NCBI GenBank assembly: GCA_919902495.1
Contig: CAKKRC010000006.1
Span: 1 to 32,513, forward strand
DNA length: 32,513 nucleotides
Direction: 5' to 3'
Source: Nitrospiria bacterium
Lineage (GTDB): Bacteria > Nitrospirota > UBA9217
Shown here piece by piece: positions 767-15,202 of this stretch. The notes beneath the pieces are model-generated. The model was not told the DNA's origin. It ran no database searches and was given only the letters and a program-made list of their open reading frames with translations. The position numbers and the translations under genes are program-made. Position 1 is the first letter of the stretch. Each line of letters starts with the position of its first letter.

Positions 767-900
767 AGACCGAGGACAGACAACAGCCCGCTGTCAGCTG
801 CTGTATTTGCATAAACACTCTAAGGTGGGGGGGGTGATGAGCACAGCGCCGATTTATAGTTATTCAAACATGTACTAAAATTAAAGTAATGGGAGGTTTC

Positions 901-1467
901 ATGAAGAAGACTTTACTGATCGTTTCTGCAGTTATCGCTGCTGGACTTTGTTCCTTTTCACCGGCACAGGCTACTGATCGGACCAGCGTAGTGGATTCGC
1001 TTGCACTGGATAGTTACGAGCAGCGCAAGCCGACCCTGGATATGGCAAATAAGGCGGCCTATAAAAAGGGCTTGACCCTGGAAGCCCTGGGTAAGACCTG
1101 CAAGCTCCTGCCTGTCCGGGTCGGAGCGATCCTCACCGGCCAGGCTCCTTTAGAGAAAGCTGCACAGGATTGCCTGGAAAAAGAGCTTGACCTGAAAGCC
1201 GGCTCGTTGGCCCCCTTGGCGCCTCCTCCGGTACGCTGGCAAAGCGGCGCTATTTATCGCATGCACGAGGCGATAGAGGTGTATGGGCCGGCAATGCAGC
1301 GCTGGATGAATGAACGGTTCGGCGATATGATCATGTCGGCCATCGACTTCAACATAACCGTCGAGGAGACCAAGGGCTCCCATGGTGAGCGCCGCATGCG
1401 CATCATTTTCGATGGTAAGGCGCTGCCCTACTCGAAAGACGAGGGATGGAAGCCGGCAGCCCCGTGA
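901..1467 (+). CDS. cynS: Cyanase (cyanate hydratase) with N-terminal signal peptide
   Basis: Cyanase converts cyanate and bicarbonate to ammonia and CO2 and normally works as a cytosolic decamer. Here the 188-residue product begins with a Lys-Lys pair, a hydrophobic stretch and a likely signal-peptidase site (AQA|TD after residue 24). After that it follows the cyanase fold: an N-terminal helical domain, then the catalytic domain with IYRMHEAIEVYGP and FGDMIMSAIDF. Catalytic Arg120, Glu123 and Ser146 correspond to E. coli Arg96, Glu99 and Ser122 at a constant offset of 24, so the leader looks like an addition to an otherwise full-length enzyme. The start at 901 is preceded by GGGAGG at about 891-896; an in-frame ATG at 889 overlaps that site and is less likely. 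No cyanate transporter or carbonic anhydrase gene is adjacent. The enzyme family is secure from motifs; export is inferred from the leader. Confidence 0.88.
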   Translation: MKKTLLIVSAVIAAGLCSFSPAQATDRTSVVDSLALDSYEQRKPTLDMANKAAYKKGLTLEALGKTCKLLPVRVGAILTGQAPLEKAAQDCLEKELDLKAGSLAPLAPPPVRWQSGAIYRMHEAIEVYGPAMQRWMNERFGDMIMSAIDFNITVEETKGSHGERRMRIIFDGKALPYSKDEGWKPAAP

Positions 1468-1675: not shown

Positions 1676-1720
1676 CTACCCGTACAGGTAGTTACATAGA
1701 TCGGAGAAAATCAGTATATT
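1676..1720 (+). promoter_or_regulatory. Dyad operator (7-2-7) plus -10 box upstream of the receiver gene
   Basis: The imperfect dyad CTACCCG-TA-CAGGTAG (1676-1691) lies exactly 23 bp upstream of a -10-like TATATT (1715-1720). The -35 region has no good match to TTGACA. The predicted start would be near 1727, which puts the dyad centre near -43, a class II activator position. The same arrangement occurs at 2364-2408. The 1468-1799 gap otherwise holds only the terminator at 1561. Confidence 0.5.
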
Positions 1721-1799
1721 GAAATTGCCCTCAAGGCAGCATGCCGGCTGATCCACTGCAATCGGCGCGAAATGGGCTTGCTCACGGATCCTATTGAGA

Positions 1800-2180
1800 A
1801 TGAAACAGCAACAGGAACGATCTATCCTCGTGATCGACGATAACGCTCCGCTGCGAACAGAGCTCGGCACGCTGCTGGAGAACGGTGGTTGGTGTGTAAC
1901 GCTCTGCGAGGACGGCTCTACGGCCATCCGGAGCGTGACTGCCAGGTCGTATGACGCCGTCCTTATCGATTTCAGCCTGCCCGACATCCGGGGGCACGTG
2001 GTCACGGAGATGCTCCGCATGATCATTCCCCGGGCGTGCATCATCGGTATCAGCTTCCGGGACCGGAAGGAGGAATTCCTGGCCGCCGGCGCCGATGCCT
2101 TTCTCCTGAAGCCCTTTGATATCGACGAGGTGAACAGGATCGCGGGAATGAGCGGGTCAGAGACGAGGGGCATGGCCTGA
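1800..2180 (+). CDS. Single-domain response regulator (receiver only)
   Basis: This CheY-like receiver of about 126 residues has no output domain. It carries the acidic pocket (VIDDN), the phospho-acceptor Asp57 in VLIDFSLPD, the switch Ser85 and the conserved Lys104 in LLKPF. It would receive phosphate from a histidine kinase and act through protein contacts or as a phosphate sink. The ATG at 1800 is chosen; a TTG at 1794 would add two residues, and neither has a strong Shine-Dalgarno sequence. No kinase gene is adjacent, so it may be an orphan. It shares an operator/promoter layout with the promoter at 2364-2408, so it may belong to one regulon with the response regulator starting at 2789. 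Confidence 0.85.
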   Translation: MKQQQERSILVIDDNAPLRTELGTLLENGGWCVTLCEDGSTAIRSVTARSYDAVLIDFSLPDIRGHVVTEMLRMIIPRACIIGISFRDRKEEFLAAGADAFLLKPFDIDEVNRIAGMSGSETRGMA

Positions 2181-2197
2181 TCAAGGGAATTGAAGCT

Positions 2198-2213
2198 CTG
2201 CAGCTAGCTGCAG
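2198..2213. other. 16-bp perfect palindrome
   Basis: CTGCAGCTAGCTGCAG is a perfect palindrome 18 bp after the receiver gene. It has no T-tract after it, so it is a poor terminator; it may be a protein-binding site. It opens the 608-bp gap at 2181-2788. The rest of that gap holds the dyad promoter at 2364-2408, a possible hairpin at 2429-2475 and the promoter at 2603-2631. Confidence 0.35.
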
Positions 2214-2363
2214 GGAATCTTAATCCTATATGCTAGGCGCTCGCTAACCTCCCAAGCTACGGAGAATGAGCTCGCTCCTGGATCTAAGGACGGCATGTGC
2301 AATAACAAGGACGGGGTCGTATGCCCTGCCCTTTTATTTTGTCATCAGCGCAAAAAAATATAC

Positions 2364-2408
2364 CTACCCGAACGGGTAGTATCCATTCCGATATAAACTT
2401 CGTATAAT
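2364..2408 (+). promoter_or_regulatory. Dyad operator (7-2-7) plus -10 box TATAAT
   Basis: CTACCCG-AA-CGGGTAG (2364-2379) has perfect 7-bp arms around a 2-bp spacer and lies 23 bp before a consensus TATAAT (2403-2408). The -35 position (about 2380-2385) is poor, as expected for an activator-dependent promoter. NarL-family regulators are known to bind inverted heptamers with 2-bp spacing. A start near 2415 would give a leader of about 375 nt before the gene at 2789, or a separate small RNA. Confidence 0.55.
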
Positions 2409-2602: not shown

Positions 2603-2631
2603 TTGACAATAAAATACCGTACTCATATACT
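2603..2631 (+). promoter_or_regulatory. Sigma-70-type promoter of the tandem-HTH response regulator
   Basis: The -35 hexamer TTGACA (2603-2608), a spacer of exactly 17 bp and the -10 hexamer TATACT (2626-2631) are near consensus. A start near 2638 gives a leader of about 150 nt before the ATG at 2789. With the activator-type promoter at 2364-2408, the gene may have one constitutive and one regulated promoter. Confidence 0.65.
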
Positions 2632-2788: not shown

Positions 2789-3622
2789 ATGAGCATACGG
2801 ATACTTCTTGTGGACGATCACCAGATGTTGCGCGAAGGCTTTCGATCGCTGATTTCCGAACAATCGAACTTGACGGTAATCGCGGAGGCCGAGGACGGCA
2901 GGTCGGCGGTTCAACTGGCGGCCAAGCTGTCGCCGGATGTCGTGGTCATGGACATTTCGATGCCCGGGATGAACGGTATTGAGGCCGCGCGGCAGATCCT
3001 GATCGCCAACCCCGTCGTGAAGATCTTGGCCCTGTCAATGCATCTGGACCGGCGCATGGTGCTGGAAATGTTCAAAGCAGGCGCTTCCGGCTATCTTCAC
3101 AAGGAATGCGCCTTTGACGAGGTCGTCCGGGCCGTGCAGGTCGTTGCGTCGAACGTCGTCTATCTCAGTCCGAAGATCGCAGACATTCTTTTCAAGGATT
3201 ATGGCCACCGCGTCCAGAAGGGAGAACTATCACCGGTATCCGGGATGCCAGAGCGTGAACGGGCGGTCCTTCAACTTATGGAGGAAGGCAAAGATATGAG
3301 AGAGATCGCGTCCCTTCTTCATACCAGCATCAAGAATGCCGAGTCCTGCCGCGTGCAGATGATCCTCGATCATATCCTTCCGCATCTTCTCAGTGCACAG
3401 AACGACACGGTGGCGGGCTTGGACGTTTCTCTGACGCCGCGGGAATGTGAGATCATGATCTGGGTCAAGGACGGCAAGAGCACCAGTGAGATCGCATCCA
3501 TTCTCAATATCAGCCAGGACACCGTGAAATTTCATATGAAAAATGTATTTCAGAAACTCGGTGCGACCAGCCGGTCGCAGGCAATCGCCATTGCGATCGA
3601 GAACAAGCTCGTTGAATCCTGA
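2789..3622 (+). CDS. NarL/FixJ-type response regulator with two LuxR-type HTH modules
   Basis: The 277-residue product is longer than the roughly 210 residues usual for this family. Residues 1-120 form a receiver with Asp9/Asp10, phospho-acceptor Asp55 (VVVMDISMPGMNG), Ser83 and Lys105. Residues about 147-195 resemble a LuxR HTH (MPERERAVLQLMEEGKDMREI) with a degenerate recognition helix (IKNAESCRVQ). Residues 214-270 are a second, better conserved HTH (LTPRECEI, GKSTSEIASILNISQDTVKF). The start has a strong AAGGGGAG site. The protein is presumably a DNA-binding transcription factor controlled by phosphorylation; its kinase is not in the window. The two 7-2-7 dyads upstream are plausible targets. 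The receiver and second HTH are certain; reading the middle segment as a decayed HTH is my interpretation. Confidence 0.9.
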   Translation: MSIRILLVDDHQMLREGFRSLISEQSNLTVIAEAEDGRSAVQLAAKLSPDVVVMDISMPGMNGIEAARQILIANPVVKILALSMHLDRRMVLEMFKAGASGYLHKECAFDEVVRAVQVVASNVVYLSPKIADILFKDYGHRVQKGELSPVSGMPERERAVLQLMEEGKDMREIASLLHTSIKNAESCRVQMILDHILPHLLSAQNDTVAGLDVSLTPRECEIMIWVKDGKSTSEIASILNISQDTVKFHMKNVFQKLGATSRSQAIAIAIENKLVES

Positions 3623-7954: not shown

Positions 7955-8227
7955 ATGAAGCAAATAACGATCAGGGGTATTCCCGCCGATGTGCAGAAAG
8001 CAGTGAAAAAAGAAGCTGCGCGCAGGAAGACCAGCTTGAACAAGGCGCTGGTGTCGCTGCTCGAACGTGGGACGGGGACAGCCGCGACGGAAAGGCGGAC
8101 GCCGGTCCTGTATCACGACCTTGACCACCTTGCCGGACTTTGGGCGAAGGAAGACGCAGCAGAGTTCGACAGATCGCTGGATGCGCAGCGGAAGATCGAC
8201 GAGGGGCTATGGAAAAAAATAAAGTAG
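7955..8227 (+). CDS. vapB: Type II antitoxin, FitA/VapB-like (ribbon-helix-helix)
   Basis: This 90-residue protein starts with a ribbon-helix-helix segment (QITIRGIPADVQKAVKKEAA, then SLNKALVSLLER). Its C-terminal part (HDLDHLAGLWAKEDAAEFD) resembles the toxin-binding tail of FitA-like antitoxins. It should neutralise the PIN toxin encoded next and repress its own promoter through the palindrome at 7909-7933. AGGAG precedes the start. It overlaps the toxin gene by 19 bp. Assignment rests on sequence pattern plus context. Confidence 0.82.
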   Translation: MKQITIRGIPADVQKAVKKEAARRKTSLNKALVSLLERGTGTAATERRTPVLYHDLDHLAGLWAKEDAAEFDRSLDAQRKIDEGLWKKIK

Positions 8228-8613
8228 CTCTTGATACGTCGGCATTCTCCGTGTTCCTGCGCGGTAACGAGGAAGTAGTACGGGCCCTCCAGGGGGCTGA
8301 TGAGATCACGCTCAACCCGGTTGTGCTCGGGGAACTGCGCGCGGGATTCCTTATGGGAAAGCACAGGGCGCGGAACGAATCGGTGCTCAGGGAATTCCTG
8401 AGTTCGTCGCGGGTGAGGGTGCGCGATATTGACGAGGAGACCTCTGAGCGCTACGCAGTGATATTCGCCTACCTGCGCGAACAGGGATCACCGATACCCA
8501 CCAATGACATCTGGATCGCCGCTTCGGCGATGCAGCATGGCCTGAAGCTTATCACGACCGACAAGCACTACCTCAAGTTGCCACAGATCATTGTGGAATG
8601 CTGCGCAATATAG
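8209..8613 (+). CDS. vapC: PIN-domain ribonuclease toxin, VapC/FitB family
   Basis: VapC toxins are Mg-dependent RNases that cleave tRNA or rRNA. The 134-residue protein carries the four acidic PIN residues: Asp9 (ALDTSAF), Glu42 (LGELRAG), Asp100 (TNDIWIAA) and Asp118 (TTDKHY). The ATG at 8209 lies within the end of the antitoxin gene with GAGGGG before it, so toxin synthesis is coupled to antitoxin translation. All catalytic residues are intact, so the toxin is probably active. Target RNA unknown. Confidence 0.9.
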   Translation: MEKNKVALDTSAFSVFLRGNEEVVRALQGADEITLNPVVLGELRAGFLMGKHRARNESVLREFLSSSRVRVRDIDEETSERYAVIFAYLREQGSPIPTNDIWIAASAMQHGLKLITTDKHYLKLPQIIVECCAI

Positions 8614-11773: not shown

Positions 11774-14700
11774 ATGGGAAGACTAATGATCGCATTGTTA
11801 CTGCTTCTACTTGCATTCGGCACGGGCGTGCCAGCCTATGCACAAGGGACCGAATGGGATATGCTTAACGCCGAGGTCATGTCACTCTACAAGCAGGGTC
11901 ACTATGACCGTGCCATCGTTGTGGCGAAGAAAGCGCTCCAAGTCGCCGAGCAAGCAGTGAGTCCCAATCATGCCGATGTGGCCACGAGCCTGAACAACCT
12001 TGCGTTATTGTACAACACCCAAGGTCAGTACGCGCAGGCCGAGCCGCTCTATAAGCGCTCGCTCGCGATCGACGAGAAAGCCTACGGGCCATACCACCCC
12101 GCCGTCGCAATAGACCTGAACAACCTCGCGTTACTGTACAGCAACCAAGGACAGTACGCGCAGGCCGAGCCGCTCTATAAGCGCTCGCTGGCGATCTGTG
12201 AGAAGGCCCTCGGACCGGATCATCCCAATGTGGCCACGAGTTTGAACAACCTCGCGGAACTTTACAACATCCAAGGCCAGTACGCGCAGGCTGAGCCACT
12301 CTATAAGCGCTCGCTCGCGATCTTTGAGAAGGCCCTCGGACCGTATCATCCTAATGTGGCCGCGAGCCTGAACAACCTCGCGGGGCTGTACAAAACCCAG
12401 GGTCAATACGCGCAGGCCGAGCCGCTCTATAAGCGTTCGCTGGCCATCAGGGAGACGGCCCTCGGACCGGATCATCCCGATGTGGCCACCAGCCTGAATG
12501 ATCTCGCGGAACTATACCGCACTCAAGCCCAGTACGCGCAGGCCGAGCCACTCTACATGCGCTCGCTGGAGATCATTGAGAAGGCCCTCGGCCCTAATCA
12601 TCCCGATGTGGCCTTGAGTCTGAACAACCTTGCGTTTCTGTACGTGTCCCAAGGCCAGTATGCGCAGGCCGAGCGGCTATTAAAGCGCGCGCTGGCGATA
12701 AGAGAGAAGGCCCTTGGTCCCAATCATCCCGATGTGGCCGCGAGCCTGAGCAACCTTGCGTTTCTGTATGATTCCCAAGGTCAGTATGCGCAGGCCGAGC
12801 CGCTCTTAAAGCGCTCGCTCGCGATCTTCGAGAAGGCTCTCGGCCTGGATCATCCCGATGTGGCCACGAGCCTGAACAACCTCGCGGCTCTATACAAAAC
12901 CCAGGGTCAATACGTGCAGGCCGAGCCGCTCTACAAGCGCTCGCTGGCCATCAGGGAGAAGTCCCTCGGCCCGGATCATCCCGATGTGGCCGGGAGCTTG
13001 AACAACCTCGCGGCGCTGTACGACACCCAAGGCCAGTACGCGCAGGCCGAGCCGCTCTACAAACGTTCGCTGACCATCAGGGAGAGGGCCCTCGGACCGG
13101 ATCATCCCGATGTGGCCCAGAGTCTGAACAATCTCGCGTTGCTATACAACACACAAGGCCAGTACGCGCAGGCCGAGCCGTTCTACAAACGTTCGCTGGC
13201 CATCAGGGAGAAGGCCCTCGGACCGTATCATCCAGATGTGGCCGTGAGCCTGAACAACCTTGCGTTTCTGTACGATTCCCAAGGCCAGTATGCGCAGGCA
13301 GAGCCGCTCTACAAGCACTCGCTGGCTATCATGGAGAAGGCCCTCGGCCCGGAACATCCCGAAGTGGCCACGAGTCTGAACAACCTCGCGGAGCTGTACA
13401 AAAACCAAGGCCAATATGCGCAGGCACTCTCAATGGTGCGCAGAGCCAGTGCCATCTTTAGGCAACGGATCGTCGCCGGAGGAACAGGGGATGCGGCCGT
13501 TCGTGAAGCATCTAAAAATCGCTCTGGTTTCCTGACCCACCTCTCACTTCTTTCCCGTAATCCTGACAAGGAAGTTGCCGAAAAAATTACCGATGAAGCC
13601 TTTCAGATAGTGCAACTCGAACAAGCGTCCGGTACCGCTTCCGCCATCGCCAAAATGGCCTCCCGCTTCGCCAGCGGTGACGATGCTTTGGCTGGCCTGG
13701 TCAAGCGCAAGCAGGATGCAACTGATCGCCATGCAAGGGATGAGACAAAACTGGTCAGTGCTGCCAGCAAGCCGCCGCAGGAGCGCAATTCCGCCGATGA
13801 GCAAAGGCTGCGCGACGAGATCGCCCGCGTGACGCAGGATATGGCGATGATCGATGCGGAACTGACCCGCCGCTTTCCCGAGTATCAGGAACTTACCCGT
13901 CCCGAGCCGGCTTCCGTCAGCCAGATCCAAGCCTTGTTGAAACCAGGCGAGGCGATGCTGGTCTATGAGCTCGGTAGCTCCAGTTTTCTTTGGGTGGTTA
14001 GACGGAACGGCGCAGATTTTCAGTCTCTCAAAATGGATGCGAAGGATATCTCCAAGAAAGTGGCAACGGTCCGCTCCGAGATGGAATTCGACAATACCGG
14101 AAACGCCCGGCGCGTCAGCGTCGGCGTCCTGTCCGAGCTTTATAATAGTCTCTTCGCCCCGGCCTTGCCGTACCTGACCGGGATCAAACATGTGATGGTG
14201 GTGCCTGCAGGCCCCTTGGTGAGCCTGCCGTTCAGCGTACTGATTGCTTCGCCCCCGCCGGAGATCAAGAGCGATGCCGACTACCGTAAGGTGGACTGGC
14301 TGACCAGGCATTACGCGTTGTCGGTGCTGCCGTCGGTAAGTTCGATCCAGGCCTTTCGCCAGTTCGCCAAGGCAGGCAAAGCACAGGAACCCTTTGCCGG
14401 GTTCGGCGATCCTCTGATCGGCGGAACCGGCGACACAACCGGCACAACGCGCGGCAAGCGCGCCAGTATGGATGTCGCCACGGTATTCCGCGGTGTGGTG
14501 GTGAAATCCAAAGCCTCGACGACCGCACAAGTCGTCGAAATTGCCGACGTCGAGGCGATCCGCAAAGCACCGCGCCTGCCGGAGACCGCCAACGAACTGC
14601 GAGCTATGGCCAAAGCGCTCAAGTCCGACTCAAAGTCGCTCTGGTTGCAGGAGAACGCGACCGAGACCAAGATCAAAAGGCTGGATTTATCGAAGTACCG

Positions 14701-15202
14701 CACGCTGGCATTCGCTACCCATGGTTTGATGGCCGGCGAGATCAAAGGTATCGGTGAGCCCGGTCTGATCCTGACGCCGCCGCAACAAGGATCGCTGGAG
14801 GACGATGGTTATCTTTCCGGTGGCGAGATCGCCAAGCTGAAGCTCAACGCGGATTGGGTTGTCTTGTCGGCCTGCAATACGGCGTCAGCCGATGGCACAC
14901 CGGGCGCAGAGGGCTTGTCGGGCCTGGCCAAAGCCTTCTTCTATGCGGGAGCCCGCTCCCTGCTGGTGTCCCACTGGCCGGTCGCTTCGGAGGCTACCGT
15001 ACCGCTCACCACCGGCATGTTGAAAGAATACGAAGCCAATCCCGGCCAGGGCAAGGCGGAAGCGCATCGCAAGGCGATGCTCTCGCTGATTGACACGCCG
15101 AACCATCCGGAATATGCCAACCCGCTATTCTGGGCGCCGTTCGTGGTGGTTGGCGAAGGCGGTGCGGGAAGCAAGACCAAGGCGGGCAGCGCCAGTCGAT
15201 GA
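11774..15202 (+). CDS. Exported TPR-repeat CHAT-domain (caspase-like) protein
   Basis: The 1142-residue product begins with a signal peptide (to about AYA|Q at 23-24). From about residue 36 it has one partial and then 12 full 42-residue TPR units of the kinesin-light-chain type (65-569; pattern HPDVATSLNNLA, QGQYAQAEPLYKRSLAI). A helical Lys/Arg/Glu-rich linker (about 570-710) leads to a CHAT peptidase domain (about 715-1130). The dyad is visible: His983 in FATHG and Cys1034 in LSACNTA, followed by GLSGLAKAFFYAGARSLLVSHWPV. CHAT proteins are caspase-relatives that cleave target proteins; TPRs usually bind the partner. With a signal peptide, this one should act in the periplasm or outside. AGGGAG precedes the start. 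No obvious substrate gene is adjacent. Confidence 0.93.
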   Translation: MGRLMIALLLLLLAFGTGVPAYAQGTEWDMLNAEVMSLYKQGHYDRAIVVAKKALQVAEQAVSPNHADVATSLNNLALLYNTQGQYAQAEPLYKRSLAIDEKAYGPYHPAVAIDLNNLALLYSNQGQYAQAEPLYKRSLAICEKALGPDHPNVATSLNNLAELYNIQGQYAQAEPLYKRSLAIFEKALGPYHPNVAASLNNLAGLYKTQGQYAQAEPLYKRSLAIRETALGPDHPDVATSLNDLAELYRTQAQYAQAEPLYMRSLEIIEKALGPNHPDVALSLNNLAFLYVSQGQYAQAERLLKRALAIREKALGPNHPDVAASLSNLAFLYDSQGQYAQAEPLLKRSLAIFEKALGLDHPDVATSLNNLAALYKTQGQYVQAEPLYKRSLAIREKSLGPDHPDVAGSLNNLAALYDTQGQYAQAEPLYKRSLTIRERALGPDHPDVAQSLNNLALLYNTQGQYAQAEPFYKRSLAIREKALGPYHPDVAVSLNNLAFLYDSQGQYAQAEPLYKHSLAIMEKALGPEHPEVATSLNNLAELYKNQGQYAQALSMVRRASAIFRQRIVAGGTGDAAVREASKNRSGFLTHLSLLSRNPDKEVAEKITDEAFQIVQLEQASGTASAIAKMASRFASGDDALAGLVKRKQDATDRHARDETKLVSAASKPPQERNSADEQRLRDEIARVTQDMAMIDAELTRRFPEYQELTRPEPASVSQIQALLKPGEAMLVYELGSSSFLWVVRRNGADFQSLKMDAKDISKKVATVRSEMEFDNTGNARRVSVGVLSELYNSLFAPALPYLTGIKHVMVVPAGPLVSLPFSVLIASPPPEIKSDADYRKVDWLTRHYALSVLPSVSSIQAFRQFAKAGKAQEPFAGFGDPLIGGTGDTTGTTRGKRASMDVATVFRGVVVKSKASTTAQVVEIADVEAIRKAPRLPETANELRAMAKALKSDSKSLWLQENATETKIKRLDLSKYRTLAFATHGLMAGEIKGIGEPGLILTPPQQGSLEDDGYLSGGEIAKLKLNADWVVLSACNTASADGTPGAEGLSGLAKAFFYAGARSLLVSHWPVASEATVPLTTGMLKEYEANPGQGKAEAHRKAMLSLIDTPNHPEYANPLFWAPFVVVGEGGAGSKTKAGSASR
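11966..13477 (+). repeat. 126-bp tandem repeat inside the TPR-CHAT gene
   Basis: Twelve 126-bp units encode the 42-residue TPRs. Many stretches are identical between units at DNA level, suggesting recent expansion or homogenisation and possible unit-number variation between strains. It is coding sequence, not a CRISPR array. Confidence 0.85.

Follow-up and report, generated by a model that had tools for sequence, protein, structure and literature searches.

A response regulator with a second, LuxR-type DNA-binding domain accompanies lux-box-like promoters in Nitrospirota

Two promoters in the window (the whole stretch of 32,513 nucleotides analysed here) carry a dyad that resembles a lux box and lie close to the gene of a response regulator with two HTH domains, the second of which is of LuxR type. 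We lean towards the reading that this response regulator obtained its second DNA-binding domain from a quorum-sensing LuxR and controls a lux-box regulon through phosphorylation, with AHL synthase and AHL receptor gone, and that the stages are still visible in the family as a one-HTH ancestor, a two-HTH regulator with its kinase (G001), the orphan regulator (G004 and G000, the window's own genome) and a LuxR/LuxI pair (G010). It is likely, taken by itself, that the regulator reads the lux-box-like dyads in class II position via its C-terminal HTH2, and it is close to certain that the promoters with a dyad 23 bp from the -10 (dyad-N23 promoters) are a genuine regulatory family. The geometry of the sites and their excess over chance, their occurrence in the same genomes as the two-HTH regulator, the origins of its domains and the absence of LuxI and LuxR matches were all computed here.

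Geometry and excess of the dyad promoters

The promoter region of the window contains the following features.

1561-1586, no strand assigned: bidirectional terminator-like hairpin upstream of promoter 1, with a 10-11 bp stem and T-rich tails on both strands
1676-1691, plus strand: dyad 1, lux-box-like operator of CT-N12-AG form, CTACCCGTACAGGTAG, read directly from the sequence
1715-1720, plus strand: -10 hexamer TATATT, 23 bp downstream of dyad 1, direct reading
1800-2180, plus strand: single-domain receiver (Spo0F/CheY-like), likely target of promoter 1 (PF00072, E=8e-18)
2364-2379, plus strand: dyad 2, perfect lux-box-like operator, CTACCCGAACGGGTAG, read directly from the sequence
2403-2408, plus strand: -10 hexamer TATAAT, 23 bp downstream of dyad 2, direct reading
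2603-2631, plus strand: consensus sigma-70 promoter TTGACA-N17-TATACT (11/12 matches), between dyad 2 and the regulator gene

The dyads read CTACCCG-TA-CAGGTAG and CTACCCG-AA-CGGGTAG, and their arms pair at 6/7 and 7/7 positions, respectively. The identical 23-bp gap to TATATT and TATAAT, from which the sequence-only reading started, was confirmed by direct reading of the coordinates, and the class II-like placement that it proposed holds as geometry, the 23-bp distance to the -10 placing the dyad centre near -43. Its statement that both promoters lack a -35 is correct for site 2, where a good -35 is missing, but site 1 has a weak GTTACA (4/6) which overlaps the last base of dyad 1. A further perfect 16-bp palindrome of CT-N12-AG form, CTGCAGCTAGCTGCAG, is found just past the receiver gene (window 2198-2213), and no -10 was found 23 bp from it.

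In the window alone, dyads with at most 3 mismatches are not significantly enriched (3 found vs 1.3 expected). The scan of this genome and its relatives that the sequence-only reading had called for revealed dyad-N23 copies beyond chance in G000, G001 and G004. CTACCCGNNCRGGTAG is present in four exact copies in the window's genome (3.67 Mb, 97% complete). When 396 Nitrospirota genomes were scanned with CTACCC-N5-GGTAG-N{10,40}-TATAWT, leaving the spacer free at 10-40 bp, all 8 matches fell in G000, G001 and G004, and 6 of the 8 had exactly N23. When the dyads of these three genomes and G010, collected without requiring a -10, were compared by their distance to a -10-like hexamer, offset 23 accounted for 9 cases and none of the others for more than 2. 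The 6 TATAWT hexamers at N23 among 23 dyads of G000, G001 and G004 give a binomial p of about 2e-14, or about 1e-12 once corrected for 60 offsets. Ten dyad-N23 promoters could be aligned to the common form ac-CTACCC-N4/5-GGTAG-TT...-TATAnT, and the proposal that both window promoters belong to one regulon is supported.

The constant spacing also bears on the idea that the dyads are RNA hairpins acting as terminators or attenuators, with no protein site, which we judge most unlikely. Some dyads in G001 and G010 do have longer stems followed by T runs, giving them the look of terminator hairpins, and the minus strand of dyad 2 has a weak T-rich tail. However, the N23 dyads lie upstream of the start site and hence outside that transcript, the stems in the window are no longer than 7 bp and lack a T run on the plus strand, and a constant 23 bp to a -10 would be meaningless for a terminator. 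The terminator hairpin was rejected for the N23 sites and may apply to some of the G001 and G010 dyads. In G001 we also observed an upstream repeat in which a dyad, or a long hairpin with a T run, is followed by TTCTTGACT-N17-TATTCT and a common CCATCGGG-like tail (L227 5388-5403, L228 4752-4767, L018 6519 and L020 5082), and this repeat may join terminator and operator. Six loci and the surroundings of the dyads were compared with Rfam for a downstream riboswitch, and no match was obtained.

As to the nature of the operator, both window sites have the CT-N12-AG inverted-repeat core of a lux box, and their centre at about -43 is near the -42.5 typical of such a site. In the luxI promoter of Aliivibrio fischeri, 23 bp separate this core from the -10, and the same layout is found at a luxI gene within the family, where the lux box of G008 reads CTGTCAATAGTGACAG-N23-TATTGA. 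Experiments have shown the A. fischeri lux box to be an inverted repeat of 20 bp with its centre at -42.5 (PMC3376562), and its sequence has the CT-N12-AG core (PMC4444344). The usual binder of a lux box is an AHL-responsive LuxR, and since neither PF03472 nor PF00765 has a match in G000, we name the sites lux-box-like and not quorum-sensing sites.

It appears improbable that the dyads are instead repressor sites blocking the promoter. A dyad over the -35 region can occlude polymerase, and repression by LuxR-type proteins is known from other positions, such as the interval between -35 and -10 (PMC4444344); however, the poor -35 at both sites fits an activator-dependent promoter, and the position coincides with the -42.5 of the lux operon, which is activated (PMC3376562).

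Domains and origin of the regulator at 2789

2789-3622, plus strand: two-HTH response regulator with receiver, worn NarL HTH1 and LuxR-type GerE HTH2 (Pfam, family searches, alignment, tree and model)
3236-3364, plus strand: HTH1, native NarL-type, residues about 150-192, degenerate at and after the recognition helix (alignment, tree and model)
3428-3601, plus strand: HTH2, complete GerE domain, residues about 214-271, the proposed lux-box reader (PF00196, E=1.5e-27)

The 277-aa regulator has a receiver domain (PF00072, E=1.7e-28) in which D10, D55, S83 and K105 are conserved. In the structure model (mean pLDDT 90.6) HTH2 is a complete four-helix unit; in HTH1 the fourth helix is absent and the last helix continues as one 30-residue helix (181-210). 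HTH1 aligns to the single-HTH NarL regulators of G008, G009 and G012. The best NCBIfam matches of the protein are MctR, GacA/UvrY and NarL, all below cut-off, and its structural matches are LiaR and VraR.

The closest solved relatives of HTH2 by sequence (PDB) are RhlR, CviR and SdiA, and its nearest non-orthologous relative in the 61 genomes is the LuxR adjoining luxI in G010, which is 61% identical and has a recognition helix only one residue apart (TVKFHMKNIF in the G010 LuxR vs TVKFHMKNVF in HTH2). Part of the linker helix before HTH2 also matches AHL-type LuxR proteins. In a GerE tree, which was built on about 63 columns and has weak deeper forks, HTH2 falls among the LuxRs, and the neighbours of HTH1 are the one-HTH NarL regulators of G008, G009 and G013. 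These separate placements ruled out HTH2 as an internal copy of HTH1. The protein thus has the receiver of a NarL/FixJ response regulator but not its single C-terminal GerE output, and the GerE domain of an AHL-type LuxR but not the N-terminal autoinducer-binding domain, PF03472 being absent from the protein in a Pfam search. That the gene encodes a NarL-type regulator, as first read from the sequence, is right for receiver and HTH1, but the protein is not an ordinary member, owing to its second GerE domain of LuxR (AHL) type. A literature search for response regulators that have two HTHs and a LuxR domain, or that read a lux box, returned nothing relevant, which is weak as evidence.

These domains also bear on how the dyads should be framed. 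They had been taken for NarL 7-2-7 heptamers, and this did not hold up. The NarL consensus consists of inverted TACYYMT heptamers with 2 bp between them and a TAC...GTA span of 16 bp, whereas the span in the window dyads is 14 bp; the CT-N12-AG frame fits, and the candidate reader has a LuxR-type GerE domain. The 7-2-7 frame was dropped on this spacing and domain evidence. Ordinary NarL-type regulation, with 7-2-7 inverted heptamers read by a NarL-family domain, is accordingly very unlikely. Receiver and HTH1 do belong to the NarL family and NarL regulators are able to act as class II activators, but apart from the span, the single-HTH NarL orthologues (G008, G009, G012, G013) occur without such dyads, and HTH1 is worn, its fourth helix missing from the model.

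We favour a mechanism in which the response regulator, once its receiver is phosphorylated, probably binds the dyads as a dimer through the LuxR-type GerE HTH2. The bound regulator would contact RNA polymerase from the dyad centre near -43 and so compensate for the poor -35, which would make it an activator rather than a repressor at these promoters.

Distribution and history of the locus

Full-length orthologues of the regulator are confined, among 61 genomes, to G000, G001 (77%) and G004 (48%), and the other homologues align only up to about residue 200. The record of the G004 orthologue is a Nitrospirota MAG (JAOUEV010000031.1), and no other full-length match appeared among the 80 top-ranking loci of a scan across 84,980 species. 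N23 dyad promoters occur in exactly the genomes that have the two-HTH regulator, and coincidence of both traits in the same 3 of 61 genomes would be expected about once in 36,000 if they were independent. CTACCC-N5-GGTAG dyads number 4, about 11 and 8 in the three genomes and 0-3 in every other. The regulator is close to N23 dyad promoters in all three: in the window, on contig C76 of G001, where regulator and receiver orthologue share one neighbourhood with four dyads, and on C76 of G004, with two dyads, regulator and receiver together. The earlier proposal that the regulator at 2789 is the likely reader is supported, protein-DNA contact itself being something we infer.

Searches for PF00765 (LuxI) and PF03472 (AHL-binding LuxR) gave no match in G000, and neither protein was detected in G004. 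G001 has one AHL-type LuxR, a solo on C35. Convergent, overlapping luxR/luxI pairs are found in G010 (C77, L082 4179-5602) and G008 (C19, L095 4324-5818). The near-consensus dyads of G010 are few; one precedes luxI and also resembles a terminator hairpin. The two-HTH regulator was not detected in this genome.

This inventory is relevant to the possibility that another LuxR/GerE regulator, e.g. an undetected AHL LuxR, reads the dyads and that the two-HTH regulator merely adjoins them. There are real LuxR/LuxI pairs in G010 and G008 with lux-box-like sites upstream of luxI, the solo kept by G001 could read the G001 sites, and a LuxR may have been missed in G000 because the genome is 97% complete. 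However, no AHL-binding LuxR or LuxI was detected in G000 and G004, HTH2 has no closer counterpart elsewhere in G000 than a domain on C109 with 43% identity, and dyad promoters and two-HTH regulator co-occur at one locus in three genomes. We therefore regard another reader as unlikely, though as the most serious alternative, and keep the two-HTH regulator as the candidate.

The gene order around the orthologues suggests where this regulator came from. In G001 (C76, L017 2905-9482), G012 (L079 127-7065), G009 (L078) and G013 (L080) we find an operon of a TonB receptor, a geopeptide radical SAM maturase (TIGR04280; 575-577 bits in G009 and G012, cut-off 400), a binding protein, a NarX/UhpB-like kinase and a NarL-type regulator; a precursor peptide was not identified in any of the four, and the G009 and G013 contigs stop inside the operon. 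The operons of G009, G012 and G013 carry a 215-aa one-HTH regulator, and no matching dyads were found in these genomes. The five-gene operon of G001 has an N23 dyad promoter at its head and the two-HTH regulator at its end, with a 48%-identical kinase among its genes. The window locus is without TonB receptor, maturase and kinase, regulator and receiver remaining; an orthologue of the operon kinase was not found in G000, where the best match is 34% identical over a part.

We propose that the regulator originated in a geopeptide operon as a NarL-type response regulator, to which an AHL LuxR contributed its linker and DNA-binding domain, and that lux-box promoters then came, or remained, under phosphorylation control. 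In G000 an orphan two-HTH regulator apparently governs the regulon, as AHL synthase, AHL receptor and original kinase were not detected. Domain capture followed by loss would be the order of events.

In the promoter alignment dyad 2 resembles the operon promoter of G001, and it may be a remnant of such a promoter because in the window only the regulator is still downstream. Autoregulation through dyad 2, as first proposed, is weakened by its distance of about 375 nt from the gene and by the 11/12 sigma-70 promoter at 2603-2631. That dyad 2 is the sole promoter of the regulator is doubtful in view of this intervening promoter, and autoregulation from dyad 2 is therefore possible but not needed.

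Genes behind the dyads and comparison with known systems

Orthologues of the window receiver are found in G001 (72% identical) and G004 (41%), each near the regulator. The lone receiver at 1800 holds as a likely target because its G001 orthologue on C76 has an orthologous promoter, CTACCCTAACAGGTAG-N23-TATAGT, upstream of it. N23 promoters also precede the geopeptide operon and a predicted hydrolase in G001, and in G004 a MalT/BTAD-type regulator (C115) and small membrane or XRE-like proteins. The genes behind the dyad promoters form no one obvious pathway.

The remaining two exact copies in G000 are each followed, after 42 bp, by a canonical -35/-10 promoter and hence are not class II. These promoters (C18 and C53) drive large secreted RHS/YD-repeat (teneurin-like) and CARDB proteins. 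The dyad is here followed by an element GCAT-N-CCC...AAAATACCCC, with the -35/-10 42-43 bp on (L008 10001-10100 on C18, L009 9522-9620 on C53), and the element recurs in G001 (C95, L099 4411-4520), where the CARDB promoter is conserved. Such a dyad, well ahead of a complete promoter, would be in keeping with class I placement, for which the phase statistics are weak: dyads before canonical promoters have offsets of 42, 22, 31, 33, 31, 63, 17 and 33 (simulated p of about 0.02), and helical phasing is not claimed on such support.

Other genes of the window were noted in passing. A 192-aa protein (window 889-1467) combines a signal-peptide-like start with a C-terminal part matching the cyanate lyase C-terminal domain (PF02560), an odd neighbour for such a start as it is a cytoplasmic enzyme domain. 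A small ORF pair (window 7955-8613), antitoxin-like then PIN-like, has by eye the look of a VapBC-type toxin-antitoxin system, and a 1142-aa protein (window 11774-15202) has many near-identical TPR repeats and a C-terminal CHAT protease-like domain.

The system bears on the open question of how regulators acquire new DNA targets without breaking networks, as donor domain, recipient regulator, operators and pre- and post-fusion genomes can be compared inside one bacterial family. If true, the proposed takeover suggests a natural input swap on a conserved operator, with a cell-density element rewired to another type of signal. It is also a warning against taking a lux box in a genome as proof of quorum sensing.

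Compared with known systems, the G001 two-HTH regulator ends a geopeptide radical SAM operon (TIGR04280), like the one-HTH regulators of G009, G012 and G013, whereas TonB receptor, maturase and kinase are missing from the window locus. With the AHL lux box and luxI promoter (the operators of LuxR, LasR, RhlR and TraR) the window sites share CT-N12-AG, a centre near -42.5 and a poor -35, but no LuxI or AHL-binding LuxR was detected in the window's genome, and the candidate reader is a response regulator. The NarL/FixJ family (GacA/UvrY, NarL, VraR, LiaR) has in common with it the receiver with phosphorylation residues and the NarL-type HTH1; its usual members are about 205-220 aa long with one HTH, and the window regulator adds a second, LuxR-type GerE domain. 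AHL-type LuxR proteins (RhlR, CviR, SdiA and the G010 LuxR) share HTH2 and part of the linker helix, but where their PF03472 domain would stand the window regulator has a phosphorylatable receiver.
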